A stretch of 64,000 nucleotides of DNA from Geovibrio thiophilus (GTDB lineage Bacteria; Chrysiogenota; Deferribacteres; Deferribacterales; Geovibrionaceae): assembly GCF_004087915.1 (NCBI RefSeq), contig NZ_CP035108.1:1302001-1366000 (forward strand), written 5' to 3'. Positions 27,696 to 63,143 of this stretch are shown piece after piece; the stretch's first letter is position 1; each line of letters begins with the position of its first letter. The notes beneath the pieces are model-generated. The model made no database searches, was not told the origin of the DNA, and saw only the letters and a program-made list of their open reading frames with translations. The translations under genes and the position numbers were made by a program.

Positions 27696-28817
27696 TTACG
27701 CCTTGCTCTCCTCTATCATATCCGTGAACCTTTTGAAAAGGTATGTAGCGTCGTGCGGTCCGGGACCGTTTTCCGGATGGTACTGAACGGCGAATATCGG
27801 ATATTTTTTATGTTTCAGACCTTCAACGGTTTTATCGTTTAGGTTCATGTGCGTTACTTCAACCTGATCTCCGAGGCTGTCTATATCAACGGCGAAGCAG
27901 TGGTTCTGGGCGGTTATTTCCACCCTGCCTGTCTCGCTGTCCATAACAGGCTGGTTGCCGCCGTGGTGACCGAATTTCAGCTTGTATGTCTTTCCGCCGA
28001 GGGCAAGTCCGAGGATCTGGTTGCCGAGGCATATGCCGAACATAGGGTATTTGCCTATGAGCTGTCTTGTAAGCTCTATGCCGTACGTAACCGCTTCGGG
28101 GTCGCCGGGACCGTTGGAAAGGAAGACTCCGTCAGGCTTGAGGGCGTCTATCTCTTCAATTTTAGCAGTGGCGGGAACAACCGTAACCTTGCAGCCGAGA
28201 TCAGCCATGTTGCGGAGAATGTTTCTTTTTATGCCGAAGTCAATGGCAGCAATGTGGTATTTGGGATTTTCAAGCGTGCCGTAGCCGGTGCCCAGCTGCC
28301 AGCCTGTCTGTGTCCATTCATAGGGGACTTTACAGGTTACTTCCTTCACAAGGTCTTTGCCGACGATGGTCTGGATAGCCGCCGCCTGTTTTCTGAGCGC
28401 CTCAGTGTCCTCCGTCTGAGTGGATATGACGGCGTTCATGGAGCCTCTCTCCCTTATGTGGCGGACAAGCTTTCTCGTATCTATGTCTTCAATGCCGATT
28501 ACGCCGTGTTTTTTGAGGAAATCACCCAGACTGCCGTTTGATCTGTAGTTGGAGTGCACTCTGCTGTGCTCTTTTACTATAAACGCAGAGAGGTAAGGGC
28601 GGTATGCCTCGAAGTCTTCTTCATTAACGCCGTAGTTGCCTATCAGCGGGTAAGTCATAGCCACCATCTGCCCGTAGTAGGAGGGATCTGTGAGTATTTC
28701 CTGATAACCTGTTATAGAGGTGTTGAAAACCACTTCACCTTCAGACGTTCCGTCCGCTCCGAAACTTTTTCCTTCAAACACAGTGCCGTCTTCCAGCACA
28801 AGAAAAGCCTTGTTCAT
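27696..28817 (-). CDS. carA: Carbamoyl-phosphate synthase small subunit
   Basis: Glutaminase subunit supplying ammonia to CarB for carbamoyl phosphate (pyrimidine and arginine synthesis). The N-terminal domain has FNTSITGYQEILTDPSYYGQ (about 31-50). The class I amidotransferase domain has the nucleophile Cys in PMFGICLGNQILGLALGG (about 257-274) and the His-Glu pair in FAVQYHPENGPGP (about 343-355). Length 373 is standard. AAGAGGTATTA precedes the ATG. carB is not in the window, so the subunits are encoded apart. Confidence 0.97.
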   Translation of the reverse strand: MNKAFLVLEDGTVFEGKSFGADGTSEGEVVFNTSITGYQEILTDPSYYGQMVAMTYPLIGNYGVNEEDFEAYRPYLSAFIVKEHSRVHSNYRSNGSLGDFLKKHGVIGIEDIDTRKLVRHIRERGSMNAVISTQTEDTEALRKQAAAIQTIVGKDLVKEVTCKVPYEWTQTGWQLGTGYGTLENPKYHIAAIDFGIKRNILRNMADLGCKVTVVPATAKIEEIDALKPDGVFLSNGPGDPEAVTYGIELTRQLIGKYPMFGICLGNQILGLALGGKTYKLKFGHHGGNQPVMDSETGRVEITAQNHCFAVDIDSLGDQVEVTHMNLNDKTVEGLKHKKYPIFAVQYHPENGPGPHDATYLFKRFTDMIEESKA

Positions 28818-28863
28818 TAATACCTCTTATATATAACAAAAATCCGTACATCCTGTCGTATAT

Positions 28864-28892
28864 GATATATTGTTTTTACTGTCTTTATTCAA
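28864..28892 (-). promoter_or_regulatory. Probable sigma-70 promoter of carA
   Basis: On the minus strand TTGAAT (28887-28892) and TATATC (28864-28869) are separated by 17 bases. The start site would be about 40 bases before the carA ATG. Confidence 0.5.
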
Positions 28893-28911: not shown

Positions 28912-29004
28912 GGCACATGGATGTGCCGCCCGCCGTGCGCAGCGAAGCCTTGCCTAGCAAGGCGCGAGCGTGTATGCAAAAAACACAGGATGTAGTTTTT
29001 TGCA
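28912..29004 (+). repeat. Dispersed hairpin-core-hairpin repeat, single copy
   Basis: Three inverted repeats in a row. Left: GGCACAT/ATGTGCC (28912-28918, 28921-28927). Core, 28930-28973: CCGCCGTGCGCAGCGAAGCC, then a GCCTTG/CAAGGC stem (28947-28952, 28958-28963) and GCGAGCGTGT. Right: a perfect 10-bp TGCAAAAAAC/GTTTTTTGCA (28975-28984, 28995-29004). The 44-bp core matches the tandem copies at 61725 and 61831 except for the loop and one base, while the flanking hairpins differ. It lies between the htrA stop and the carA promoter. Confidence 0.85.
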
Positions 29005-29012
29005 TTGTAAGA

Positions 29013-30368
29013 TCAAGGGTTCAGCTTGATCTGCAAGAGTCTGCCGTCCCTGTACACCGTGAGGATGAACGGCTTATCCTGATTATCCTCAATCAGCCGA
29101 CTGAGCTGTTCTAGGTTGTCAAGCTCCGTTCCGTTAAGGGCAACAACTATGTCGCCGACGGTGATATACTTGGTACCCTCACTTTTTGCCACGGTAAGAT
29201 AACCATCTTTCTCGCTCACTGCAATACCGTATTTAGTATCCAGATGTATTAATCCGAAATCTGAGGGTCTCTCAGTGAGGACAAGCCTCCCTTTAAAGGT
29301 TCCGTCAGCCCTTTTTATGCCTATTTCAACGGATGAATCGGGGGGATAGCTGCGGAGGATGTGGTACATTACCTCTTCACTGTTTATGGGCACGCCCCCG
29401 ACCTCAACGACTTCATCTCCGGCTTTAAGACCTATCTCTTCGGCATTGGAGCCTTTTTCAACGGATTCTATGACGGGCATCATGTCCTCACCTTTGGCGG
29501 TGTCCTTAACGGTGAAGCCTACATGTCCGCGGCGGAGCTTTCCGCTTTTCATTATCTCCGGCAGAACTCTCTTTATTGTGTCCATAGGAATCGAAAAGCC
29601 TATCCCCTGCGCCTGACGGTGTATGGCGGTGTTTATGCCTATCACCTCGCCGTTTATATTAATCAGCGGACCGCCTGAGTTGCCGGGGTTTATGAGTGCG
29701 TCAGTCTGTATGAATACGCTGTAGTTATTTCCGATATTCATCATCCTTGCCGTGGCGCTGATTACTCCGGTGGTGACTGAGCTGCTGAGTCCGTATGGAT
29801 TGCCTATGGCAATTATCGGTTCACCCAACATAATATCTGAGCTTGTGCCGAGCGCCGCCGCCGGAAATTTCTTTGTTTGATCTTTAATTTTCAGTATCGC
29901 AAGGTCTATGGATTCGTCGCCGCCCACAAACTCCGCTTCGTAATTGGCGTTGTCGCGGGTGATAACAAAAATAGTTGTGGCGTCTTTTACCACATGGAAG
30001 TTGGTAACCACCGTTCCGTCCTCACGGATCATAACGCCCGAGCCAAGACTCTGGGTTTTGTAGCTGCGTTTGCGCAGTCCGAAGAAATCGTCAAAAAACG
30101 GGTCGTTGAAGAACGGGCTGACATTTGTTTCCACGGTTTTTTCCGTGCGGATGTTCACCACGCTGTCTTCAATTTTGCGTATTGCAAGAACAGTAGGCGT
30201 GACCCTGCTGGATTCAGAGGCGTCCGGCTGATGCTCGGGATGCACAGGGGCGATCGTCTCAGCTTTCGGCTGCTGTTCACCGCTCTGCGCGGGTTTTTCC
30301 TGCTTTGCCGCTCCGCAGCTTACACTGAGGATAAGAACTATGATGACTGCTGATAATTTTCTGAACAT
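29013..30368 (-). CDS. HtrA/DegP-type periplasmic serine protease
   Basis: Envelope quality-control protease, 451 residues. A short hydrophobic N-terminus ends in VSCG, so it is probably a lipoprotein. The trypsin-like domain carries the triad His in TNFHVVKDA (about 121), Asp in ESIDLAILKI (about 151) and Ser in NPGNSGGPL (about 229). Two PDZ domains follow (about 275-360 and 375-450). The loop FDDFFGLRK is typical of the Do family. GGAGAGTTAA precedes the ATG, and an extended -10-like TGATAGAAT lies about 20 bases upstream (30390-30398). The repeat element begins 8 bases beyond the stop. Confidence 0.94.
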   Translation of the reverse strand: MFRKLSAVIIVLILSVSCGAAKQEKPAQSGEQQPKAETIAPVHPEHQPDASESSRVTPTVLAIRKIEDSVVNIRTEKTVETNVSPFFNDPFFDDFFGLRKRSYKTQSLGSGVMIREDGTVVTNFHVVKDATTIFVITRDNANYEAEFVGGDESIDLAILKIKDQTKKFPAAALGTSSDIMLGEPIIAIGNPYGLSSSVTTGVISATARMMNIGNNYSVFIQTDALINPGNSGGPLININGEVIGINTAIHRQAQGIGFSIPMDTIKRVLPEIMKSGKLRRGHVGFTVKDTAKGEDMMPVIESVEKGSNAEEIGLKAGDEVVEVGGVPINSEEVMYHILRSYPPDSSVEIGIKRADGTFKGRLVLTERPSDFGLIHLDTKYGIAVSEKDGYLTVAKSEGTKYITVGDIVVALNGTELDNLEQLSRLIEDNQDKPFILTVYRDGRLLQIKLNP

Positions 30369-59929: not shown

Positions 59930-61061
59930 TATAATGGATGAGTGCGCCTCTCTCGCTCTGGCGGGAAAGGGCTTTACGAAGACCAACCCGATAGTCGGCG
60001 CCGTCATTGTCAGGGACGGAAAAATAATCGGACGCGGCTGGCACACTGAATACGGCAAGGCACACGCCGAAGTCATGGCGATTGCCGATGCCGGAGAAGT
60101 GCGCGGTGCGGATCTGTATGTTACACTCGAGCCTTGCAGCCATCACGGTAAAACGCCTCCCTGCGTCAATAAAATCATTGAAACAGGGATAAAACGTGTC
60201 TTTGTGGGTGTTGTGGATCCGAATCCGGTAAATGCCGGAAACGGTCTTGATATTCTCATGGAGCACGGGGTTGAGGTTTTTCTCGGTTACCGTGAAGAGC
60301 TATGCGCGGCGCTCATTGAGGATTTTACAAAACGCATTCTTATCGGTCTGCCTTATTATTCGCTGAAAACAGCCACATCCATAGACGGCAAGCTCGCCAC
60401 CAGAACAAAAGACTCCAAATGGATCTCATCTTCTTCATCAAGGGCCTATGCCCATTATCTCCGGAGTGTTTCCGACGCTGTGCTGGTTGGGGTGAATACA
60501 GTGATAAAGGACGATCCGCAGCTTACAGTGAGAGATGTTCATTCCGAAAACGATCCCTATAAAATAGTGCTGGATCCTCACGGCAGAATGCCCGAAGGGA
60601 GCAAACTAGAGGAAAACCCCGATAAGCTTATTTATGTGACTGAGAAGGGCGCAGAAACCTCCGCTTCCTCCCGACTGCGTGCTAAAGGCGCTAATGTGCT
60701 TGGGATTTCCTGCATCAACGGGAGTCTTGACCTGCGTGAGCTTTCAGGAAAACTTATTGAAATGAAAATAATGAACATACTTATCGAAGGCGGCGGGGAG
60801 ACTGCGGGCTCTTTTTTTGATGCGGATCTTGTGGATAAAGGCTATTTTGTCATAGCGCCGAAAATAATCGGCGGGCGTGATGCTGTTATGACCGTAACCG
60901 GAAAAGGTGTCGAACTTGTCAGCGGCGCAAAAGAGATGCTGGAGACGGACATAAGACACTTTGAAAACGATATACTCATCAGCGGACGCTTTGCGGACTA
61001 CCGCAGGCATGTGCTGGATTTAACCGAAAAACTGAGGAACAGATGTTCACGGGGATTATAG
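59904..61061 (+). CDS. ribD: Bifunctional riboflavin deaminase/reductase RibD
   Basis: Deaminates and then reduces the pyrimidine intermediate of riboflavin synthesis. 385 residues: deaminase domain with the zinc site HAEVMAIADAG (about 52-62) and LEPCSHHGKTPPC (about 76-88); reductase domain from about 150 (LKTATSIDGKLATRTKDSKW, LRSVSDAVLVGVNTVIKDDP, NILIEGGGETAGSFFDADLV). TTG at 59904 is favoured by GAGGAAAG upstream; an ATG at 59934 would remove ten residues. It overlaps ribE by 19 bases. Confidence 0.95.
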   Translation: MSLSVNPLDIMDECASLALAGKGFTKTNPIVGAVIVRDGKIIGRGWHTEYGKAHAEVMAIADAGEVRGADLYVTLEPCSHHGKTPPCVNKIIETGIKRVFVGVVDPNPVNAGNGLDILMEHGVEVFLGYREELCAALIEDFTKRILIGLPYYSLKTATSIDGKLATRTKDSKWISSSSSRAYAHYLRSVSDAVLVGVNTVIKDDPQLTVRDVHSENDPYKIVLDPHGRMPEGSKLEENPDKLIYVTEKGAETSASSRLRAKGANVLGISCINGSLDLRELSGKLIEMKIMNILIEGGGETAGSFFDADLVDKGYFVIAPKIIGGRDAVMTVTGKGVELVSGAKEMLETDIRHFENDILISGRFADYRRHVLDLTEKLRNRCSRGL

Positions 61062-61666
61062 AGGAAACAGGGAAGATCGATGCCCTGAACATAAAAGGAA
61101 ATTCCGCCGTAATCAGAATCAGGTGCTCTAAGGTGCTTGACGGCTCGAAAATCGGCGATTCCATAGCGGTAAACGGTGTATGCCTCACCGCGACTGAGAT
61201 CGATGGCGGCAGCTTCAGTGCGGATATATCGTATGAAACGCTGAAACGCACTTCTCTGGCGGGGGTCTCCGCCGGAACCCGTGTTAATCTTGAGCGGGCA
61301 CTCACTCTTTCCACCCGTCTCGGCGGGCATATAGTCAGCGGACATGTGGACGGGCTCGGAACAGTGGATTCAGTGACTCCGAAAGGTGATTCCTATGTGC
61401 TGCGGATAAGGTTCCCCGAAGCGATGGATAAATATATAGCCGAAAAGGGCTCCGTTTCCGTGGACGGGATAAGCCTTACTGTAGCGTGGGTTAACGGGCT
61501 TACGTTTGATGTGGCGGTGATTCCGCACACCTTTAAGGAGACTGTCCTCTCTGATAAACGAAGGGGCGACAAAGTAAACCTTGAAGCGGACGTTATAGCA
61601 CGCTATCTTGAGAAGCTGATGAAAAAAGAAGCCAAAGGAATAACTTCGCTTTTGGATATGCTGTAA
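61043..61666 (+). CDS. ribE: Riboflavin synthase alpha subunit
   Basis: Dismutates lumazine to riboflavin. 207 residues with two lumazine-binding repeats: MFTGIIEETGKI and GDSIAVNGVCLTATEI (first, 1-95), then GGHIVSGHVDGLGTVDSV and GSVSVDGISLTVAWVNGLTF (second, 97-190). This duplicated form excludes the archaeal type. It overlaps ribD; after it the repeat elements separate it from ribBA by 262 bases. Confidence 0.97.
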   Translation: MFTGIIEETGKIDALNIKGNSAVIRIRCSKVLDGSKIGDSIAVNGVCLTATEIDGGSFSADISYETLKRTSLAGVSAGTRVNLERALTLSTRLGGHIVSGHVDGLGTVDSVTPKGDSYVLRIRFPEAMDKYIAEKGSVSVDGISLTVAWVNGLTFDVAVIPHTFKETVLSDKRRGDKVNLEADVIARYLEKLMKKEAKGITSLLDML

Positions 61667-61681
61667 AATAAAGATTACCAA

Positions 61682-61787
61682 GGCAAACACGAACAATAAA
61701 ATAGAGATTTCCATGGAAGGAAATCCGCCGTGCGGAGCGAAGCCTTGTTTGACAAGGCGCGAGCGTGTGGTGAGTGTTTCCATGGAC
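61682..61787 (+). repeat. Tandem 106-bp repeat unit, copy 1 (hairpin-core-hairpin element)
   Basis: The unit contains a left hairpin ATTTCC/GGAAAT (61707-61712, 61719-61724), the 44-bp core (61725-61768; CCGCCGTGCGGAGCGAAGCC, the GCCTTG/CAAGGC stem at 61742-61747 and 61753-61758, GCGAGCGTGT), and a right hairpin GTGTTT/AAACAC (61774-61779, 61791-61796, running into copy 2). TTTCCATGGA occurs twice (61708, 61777). It is the same core as at 28930. Confidence 0.9.
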
Positions 61788-61893
61788 GGCAAACACGAAC
61801 AATAGAATAGAGATTTCCATGGAAGGAAATCCGCCGTGCGGAGCGAAGCCTTGTTTGACAAGGCGCGAGCGTGTGGTGAGTGTTTCCATGGAC
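61788..61893 (+). repeat. Tandem 106-bp repeat unit, copy 2
   Basis: By base comparison it differs from copy 1 at one position only (A at 61699, G at 61805), so the duplication is recent. The core is at 61831-61874 with the same stem and loop. No open frame in it has ribosome-binding support. Confidence 0.92.
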
Positions 61894-61912
61894 GGCAAAC
61901 ACGAACAATAAA
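61894..61912 (+). repeat. Partial third repeat unit
   Basis: The first 19 bases of the unit (GGCAAACACGAACAATAAA) recur, then the sequence changes to the ribBA leader. This supplies the AAACAC arm that closes the last right-hand hairpin. Confidence 0.85.
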
Positions 61913-61928: not shown

Positions 61929-63143
61929 ATGAAATATAAAAACTTAGCTACAATAGACGCGGCTATTGAAGATCTCAAACAGGGTAAAATGATTATCCTT
62001 GTGGATGATGAGGACAGGGAGAACGAAGGCGACCTTGTTCTGGCTGCGGAATATGTGACTCCGGAAGCCATAAACTTTATGGCGAAATTCGGACGCGGGC
62101 TCATCTGCCTCGCCATGACAGAAGACCGCTGCGACAGACTGGGGCTTAACCTTATGGTGGGCGGTGACGGCAATACAGCCCGTTTCGGAACGGCGTTCAC
62201 CGTGTCAATCGAAGCGAAGGAAGGCTTAACCACAGGTATTTCCGCTTTCGACAGGTCACACACTGTAAAAGTCGCAATAGATGATAAGTCCACATCAAAA
62301 GACCTCGCCAGACCCGGTCATGTTTTCCCTCTGAGGGCAAGGCAGGGGGGCGTGCTTGTCCGTGCCGGACAGACGGAAGGCTCCGTTGACCTGATGAAGG
62401 CGGCTGGACTTAAGCCCGCAGGCGTGATCTGCGAGATAATGAACGATGACGGCACAATGGCAAGAATGCCTCAGCTTGACGAATTTGCCGGAGTACACGG
62501 ACTTAAGATAATCACTATAGCCGATCTCATATCATACAGAATGGAGCACGAAAAGCTTATCGAAGAAACAAATGTCGCAAGGCTTCCCACCCATGCCGGC
62601 GAATTTAATATTCTCGGCTTCAGGAGCGTTGCCGACGGTCAGGAGGCGGTTGTCCTTATGAAAGGGGATGTAACCACCGATGAGCCCGTGCTCGTGCGTG
62701 TGCATTCACAGTGCCTTACTGGGGATGTTTTCGGCTCCAGAAGATGCGACTGCGCCTCACAGCTTCATGAGGCTATGGATCTTGTGGAAGAAAAAGGGCG
62801 CGGCGTTGTTCTCTACCTGTTTCAGGAAGGACGGGGGATAGGCATCCTTAACAAAATCAACGCTTACCATCTTCAGGATGAAGGGCTTGACACCATAGAG
62901 GCAAATATTCATCTGGGCTTCAATGAAGATTTGCGTGACTACGGTTTCGGCGCACAGATTCTCAGACATCTGGGAATCAAGGAGATCCGTCTGATCACCA
63001 ACAATCCCAAGAAGATGCGCTGCCTCTCCGGTTACGGGCTTGAAGTGGTGGAAAGGGTGGGCACCCACAGCGACCTCAACCCCGAAAACGAAAAATATCT
63101 GTTTACTAAAAAGGATAAAATGGGGCATAAACTGGATTTGTGA
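61929..63143 (+). CDS. ribBA: Bifunctional DHBP synthase / GTP cyclohydrolase II (RibBA)
   Basis: Supplies both starting arms of riboflavin synthesis. 404 residues: RibB domain (1 to about 205; ILVDDEDRENEGDLVLAAEY, RHTVKVAI-type FDRSHTVKVAIDD, RPGHVFPLRA, HTEGSVDLMKAAG-like QTEGSVDLMKAAGLKPAGV), RibA domain (about 210-404; VHSQCLTGDVFGSRRCDC with the zinc cysteines, FQEGRGIGILNKINAY, IRLITNNPKKM). The real start is ATG 61929; an in-frame ATG at 61836 lies in the repeat and would add 31 unrelated residues. Confidence 0.96.
   Translation: MKYKNLATIDAAIEDLKQGKMIILVDDEDRENEGDLVLAAEYVTPEAINFMAKFGRGLICLAMTEDRCDRLGLNLMVGGDGNTARFGTAFTVSIEAKEGLTTGISAFDRSHTVKVAIDDKSTSKDLARPGHVFPLRARQGGVLVRAGQTEGSVDLMKAAGLKPAGVICEIMNDDGTMARMPQLDEFAGVHGLKIITIADLISYRMEHEKLIEETNVARLPTHAGEFNILGFRSVADGQEAVVLMKGDVTTDEPVLVRVHSQCLTGDVFGSRRCDCASQLHEAMDLVEEKGRGVVLYLFQEGRGIGILNKINAYHLQDEGLDTIEANIHLGFNEDLRDYGFGAQILRHLGIKEIRLITNNPKKMRCLSGYGLEVVERVGTHSDLNPENEKYLFTKKDKMGHKLDL

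Follow-up and report, generated by a model that had tools for sequence, protein, structure and literature searches.

The window, a stretch of 64,000 nucleotides from Geovibrio thiophilus (whose genome is a single contig of 2,997,552 bases), carries three copies of an intergenic element in which a conserved core is bracketed by a hairpin on either side (Table 1). Copy 1 sits between carA and a gene for a trypsin-like protease with PDZ domains and is antisense to both. Copies 2 and 3 lie in sense orientation between the stop codon of the riboflavin synthase gene and ribBA, at 61.7-61.9 kb, and are a 106-bp tandem duplication, so that the window holds two independent sites rather than three. A relic of a right hairpin, in reverse orientation, is present in the carA leader; a congener (G021) has a reverse-oriented element at this position.

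Table 1. Element copies, their parts and the neighbouring genes in the window
Feature	Detail	Position	Strand
carA	carbamoyl-phosphate synthase small chain	27696..28817	-
Right-hairpin relic	CGACAGGATGTACGGAT; ACAGGATGTA; reverse-oriented, in carA leader	28836..28865	-
Copy 1, left hairpin	GGCAC-AUGGAU-GUGCC (CANGGANG loop)	28912..28927	+
Copy 1, conserved core	central helix GCCTTG (28947-28952)/CAAGGC (28958-28963)	28930..28973	+
Copy 1, right hairpin	ATGCAAAAAAC-ACAGGATGTA-GTTTTTTGCAT, CsrB-type CAGGAUG loop	28974..29005	+
Protease gene	trypsin-like protease with PDZ domains	29013..30368	-
Riboflavin synthase gene	lumazine-binding domains	61043..61666	+
Copy 2, left hairpin	GATTTCC-ATGGAA-GGAAATC	61706..61725	+
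Copy 2, conserved core		61725..61768	+
Copy 2, right hairpin	GTGTTT-CCATGGACGGC-AAACAC	61774..61796	+
Copy 3, left hairpin	repeats copy 2 in tandem (unit of 106 bp)	61812..61831	+
Copy 3, conserved core		61831..61874	+
Copy 3, right hairpin		61880..61902	+
ribBA	DHBP synthase / GTP cyclohydrolase II	61929..63143	+

The core of copy 1 is 89% identical to those of copies 2 and 3, with the differences confined to the central loop and one base, and the flanking inverted repeats are present, both as an earlier note on this DNA had described. The note had considered a structured RNA or a protein-recognised DNA element more likely than chance. Chance can be ruled out, as the core pattern with up to three mismatches has an expectation of 0.00 in the window. 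It had also taken the flanking arms to be unrelated in sequence. This holds for the stems, which differ between copies, but not for the loops, which share a conserved GGA on the same strand (ACATGGATGT, ACAGGATGT, CCATGGAAGG and CCATGGACGG).

Genome-wide the core pattern, again allowing up to three mismatches, gave 89 matches, compared to none for a reversed-pattern control. Covariance model R1, derived from an alignment of 31 elements, returned at least 150 copies among the matches listed in a search of the G. thiophilus genome, and identified 217 copies at 91 loci, one to seven per cluster, in the stretches around the matches. The latter number is a lower bound, as only these stretches were examined and sites beyond them exist (for example G000:C1:267243-267742 and 2814944-2815216). 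At least 82 copies are present in each of two congeneric species. The left hairpin could be detected in 214 of 259 distinct copies and the right hairpin in 257; a handful of copies, or flanking hairpins mostly absent, would have refuted the earlier proposal of a structured element, and neither was the case. Tandem arrays are common, and their period varies by site from about 91 to 234 nt, so each array must have expanded in place with its own flanks. Where the period is about 91-96 nt the later copies have no left hairpin, the right hairpin of the preceding copy substituting for it. Matches to the core pattern in Mycolicibacter, Reyranella and Muribaculaceae had no covariance-model match and were regarded as chance.

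The element is ~95 nt long and consists of a left hairpin, a GC-rich core with a central hairpin, and a right hairpin. RNAalifold predicted 28 pairs, with compensatory changes in 19. Across the left hairpin and core helices 99.0% of stem cells are paired and 11 pairs have changed on both sides, giving a covariation score of 0.374 compared to 0.100 in shuffled alignments and at most 0.093 in slid versions. Covariation above both controls was our criterion for a structured RNA, and the earlier inference of a fold kept under a changing sequence is strongly supported. All of the signal sits in the left helix and the central helix. The outer core helices proposed by RNAalifold (CGUGC/GCGUG and GC/GC) are almost invariant, and for this reason are neither supported nor excluded and remain unproven. 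The imperfect stem pairs on the GGA strand comprise 47 G.U against 25 A.C (p=0.013), which modestly favours selection acting on the RNA of that strand. The core itself would be either a spacer or the site of a second protein, a question that is not resolved.

To read the loops without reference to their sequence, left hairpins were chosen by base pairing alone (122 distinct, the 106 of even length being tabulated). The loop that emerged from this selection was C-A-N-G-G-A-N-G, with an information content of 1.65, 1.54, 0.34, 1.33, 1.69, 1.71, 0.32 and 1.79 bits at the successive positions, while the outer stem columns were nearly random, falling to 0.05 bits. The left hairpin presents a CANGGANG hexaloop, and CANGGANG is the published binding motif of Rsm/CsrA (RsmE) (PMC6849547); because the consensus matches this motif we read the loops as CsrA-type sites. 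The right loop is either CAGGA(U/C/A)G (CAGGANG) or CANGGANG, the hairpins falling into two loop classes, ACAGGAUGU(A/G) and CCANGGANGG(N), and ANGGA or CAGGA is found in the loop of 150 of the 173 distinct right hairpins. The repeat of E. coli CsrB is CAGGA(U/A/C)G, and SELEX gave RUACARGGAUGU (PMC7652899). The element stems, at 6-13 bp, exceed those of typical SELEX hairpins. In copies with two GGA loops both are on the same strand, and the element meets the criterion for a CsrB/RsmZ-type RNA of several GGA-loop hairpins with the CsrA consensus.

A similar arrangement is seen in other genera of the Deferribacterota. Weak model matches there, when read directly, contain a CANGGANG hairpin, a GC-rich core with a hairpin of its own and a second CANGGANG hairpin, with cores that have diverged; what the genera have in common is thus the hairpin pair, not the core. 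Exact occurrences of TTCCANGGANGGAA number 78 in G. thiophilus and 108 in G023, a genome of another genus, and 0-5 in most others, compared to none for the reversed sequence in these two genomes and in nearly all the rest.

The G. thiophilus genome contains one csrA gene, which stands in a flgL-fliW-csrA operon (FliW and CsrA were assigned by Pfam match, flgL was named from sequence reading); csrA is single-copy in all 12 genomes of the family that were searched. The encoded CsrA aligns over the whole RNA-binding region with RsmE and CsrA proteins whose structures have been solved, among them that of the RsmE-RNA entry 2jpp. Some relatives have csrA yet few or no elements, so CsrA control does not depend on the element. 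The presence of fliW is reportedly anti-correlated with the system that produces dedicated CsrA-antagonist small RNAs (PMC7652899). Just beyond the 3' end of csrA, on the opposite strand, we observed a degenerate element-like sequence (L071 1337-1431, +) whose hairpin has no clean ANGGA loop.

We consider the element most probably to be a high-copy, lineage-specific structured RNA that binds CsrA and is likely to buffer or titrate it, with both binding and transcription being inferred. The copies would for the most part be transcribed within ordinary mRNAs, in 3' UTRs or between cistrons, and each may hold CsrA at both hairpins, possibly with one dimer bridging the two. Jointly they could soak up CsrA from many dispersed sites, much as CsrB does, and so determine together with FliW how much CsrA stays free. 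Several points count against this reading. There are no expression or binding data, copy 1 is antisense, and the GGA-to-GGA distance within a single copy, ~65 nt, is at the edge of the published range for CsrA bridging of 10-63 nt (PMC7652899). The length of the stems, the relatives with csrA but few or no elements, and two features of placement given below, the lack of terminator enrichment and the confounding of the sense bias with replication strand, also weigh against it.

The placement of the copies, analysed with genes called by a custom codon-usage caller, bears on how they might be used. Clusters between co-directional genes are in sense in 60 of 78 cases and antisense in 18 (p=2e-6), and 36 clusters lie between convergent genes compared to nine between divergent genes (p=7e-5). 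Gene 3' ends are preferred, many copies beginning 0-20 nt past a same-strand stop codon, too close to the gene for a promoter of their own to fit in between. Intrinsic terminators are not enriched downstream of the element. The main alternative, possible if unlikely, is that each copy is a cis-acting CsrA site that mainly regulates the mRNA carrying it, through 3'-end stability or, if the right hairpin is near the ribosome-binding site, through translation of the next gene in the operon, with titration a by-product. The sense bias speaks for such a role, as do the six copies of Denitrovibrio sp. BM701 (G019): five of them start 4-28 nt past a same-strand stop codon, and at least one (L135) ends at the AAGGAG of the next gene. 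However, the genes upstream have varied functions (judged from their sequences, without annotation by a tool), the number of copies per site varies freely among species, and at the many sites between convergent genes there is no downstream gene to control.

The strand of the element also follows the replication half; with the split placed where the fit is best, near 1.65 Mb, this holds for 63 of 91 clusters. With the terminus split set post hoc, the sense to antisense ratio is 30:7 for leading-strand genes and 8:7 for lagging-strand genes. As the sense bias vanishes for the latter, transcription sense and replication strand are inseparable here, which weakens the view that transcription alone accounts for the strand bias.

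Comparison with congeners revealed extensive turnover. At the carA site all three have an element with identical loops and stems changed on both sides, the right stem being AAAAAAC/GTTTTTT in G. thiophilus and AAACCGG/CCGATTT in G021. The rib site has two copies in G. thiophilus, one in G021 and only a remnant left hairpin in a further congener, G022. Approximately 14 of 43 element loci in the relative 'Deferribacterales bacterium Deferri_01' share both flanks with a G. thiophilus locus. Similarity at 13 sites shared by these two genomes, compared to unrelated sites, was 0.68 against 0.64 for the left stem and 0.57 against 0.57 for the central stem; the right hairpin retains some memory of its site (0.73 against 0.60). 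At the 13 shared sites orthologous stems are nearly as divergent as paralogous ones, and the flanking DNA is about 75-90% identical. One possibility is that the complete turnover of stems occurs by conversion between copies through the core.

The gain and loss of sites between species, the wholesale replacement of stems at shared sites and the link to the replication half would suit a selfish or DNA-level repeat of the REP, MITE or ERIC kind, which is dispersed, intergenic, tandemly amplified and palindromic as the element is. Its hairpins would act in single-stranded DNA at replication or transposition, and the match to CsrA sites would be secondary. We regard this second alternative as improbable, because the loop bases are kept exactly as CsrA requires while the stems are free, G.U exceeds A.C in the imperfect pairs, several sites are common to congeneric species, and other genera keep the hairpin pair around a different core. 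In addition PF01797 (Y1_Tnp/RAYT) is absent from the genome, with E. coli as a positive control, and on this ground identity with REP/RAYT elements was rejected. The earlier note had offered structured RNA and REP- or MITE-like DNA side by side; a structured RNA bound by a protein is favoured by the CsrA-consensus loops and the G.U excess, and a REP-like element is not supported, given the missing transposase gene. MITE-like spread is neither shown nor excluded; at the two window loci, the only ones to which this applies, no clean empty site with a target-site duplication was found. It is very doubtful that some RNA-binding protein besides CsrA recognises the GGA hairpins. Binding data are lacking, and the conservation of the core hints at one or more additional partners; both loop classes, however, fit the CsrA/RsmE and CsrB motifs even at the two unconstrained N positions, and the genome has a canonical csrA.

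Returning to an RNA that binds CsrA, a wider proposal can be made, which we put forward only tentatively. The element may constitute a genome-wide distributed CsrA buffer, in which hundreds of CsrA-binding cassettes, multiplied by copying and by the growth of arrays, have come to occupy the 3' UTRs of ordinary genes and thereby couple free CsrA to overall mRNA output. Such a buffer would have arisen in a FliW lineage and been expanded independently, around different cores, in two or more genera of the Deferribacterota. If true, some 400 CsrA-type hairpins in one fliW-carrying genome would amount to a previously undescribed way of controlling a global regulator, and would provide a concrete function for a dispersed palindromic repeat, a class that is usually without an assigned one.

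CsrB/CsrC and RsmX/Y/Z are known in Gammaproteobacteria. Like the element, they have many GGA-loop hairpins that match CsrA sites, form arrays of such sites and are presumed to sequester CsrA. In contrast, they are encoded by dedicated small RNA genes, of which there are one to a few, whereas the element is scattered over at least 91 sites, most of which follow ordinary genes; it further differs in the conserved core between its hairpins, in belonging to a fliW-carrying genome and in having no Rfam match. To our knowledge no CsrB-like RNAs are known in this fliW-carrying lineage. In the Rfam search of the window only tRNAs reached the gathering score and no Csr/Rsm family was found, and the same was true of six element loci, where the other matches at E<=10 were scattered and none was Csr/Rsm. 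TwoAYGGAY (RF01731) and Bacillaceae-1 (RF01690) have CsrA-type GGA-loop hairpins and are proposed CsrA-binding RNAs outside Gammaproteobacteria, in Firmicutes (PMC4333381). The taxa reported for them are Clostridiales, gamma-Proteobacteria and gut, and Bacillaceae, and they are not described there as a high-copy dispersed repeat. TwoAYGGAY gave no match in the G. thiophilus genome at E<=1, but neither did the control genomes, so the sensitivity of this search is unproven.

Antagonism of CsrA by part of an mRNA is also found in the titrating leaders of Campylobacter flaA and Salmonella fim, and in flaA two CANGGANG-type hexaloops lie side by side, with FliW again a partner (PMC4894983). These are single 5' leaders, however, whereas the element is present in hundreds of copies, mainly behind genes. 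REP, BIME and ERIC sequences are likewise dispersed, intergenic, clustered and near gene 3' ends; the element differs from them in the absence of a RAYT gene, in its sequence-specific RNA-type loops and in stems that are free to vary. The literature that we searched held no report of such elements in Deferribacteres, nor of any high-copy dispersed CsrA-type element. Taken with the lack of an Rfam match, this leads us to rate the element as a new form of CsrA-type RNA element. What is new is the high copy number and the dispersal, known CsrA-antagonist RNAs being single loci or a few dedicated small RNAs.

We also observed in G023 a mass-expanded CANGGANG-hairpin repeat of ~131 nt (L221, L224 and L227), which has a different core with two hairpins. 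At one of these loci (L221 1-1290) the CsrA-hairpin elements adjoin a CRISPR-like array of ~21 repeats of TTTCTAAGCTGCCTGTGCGGCAGTGAAC at 60-nt spacing.
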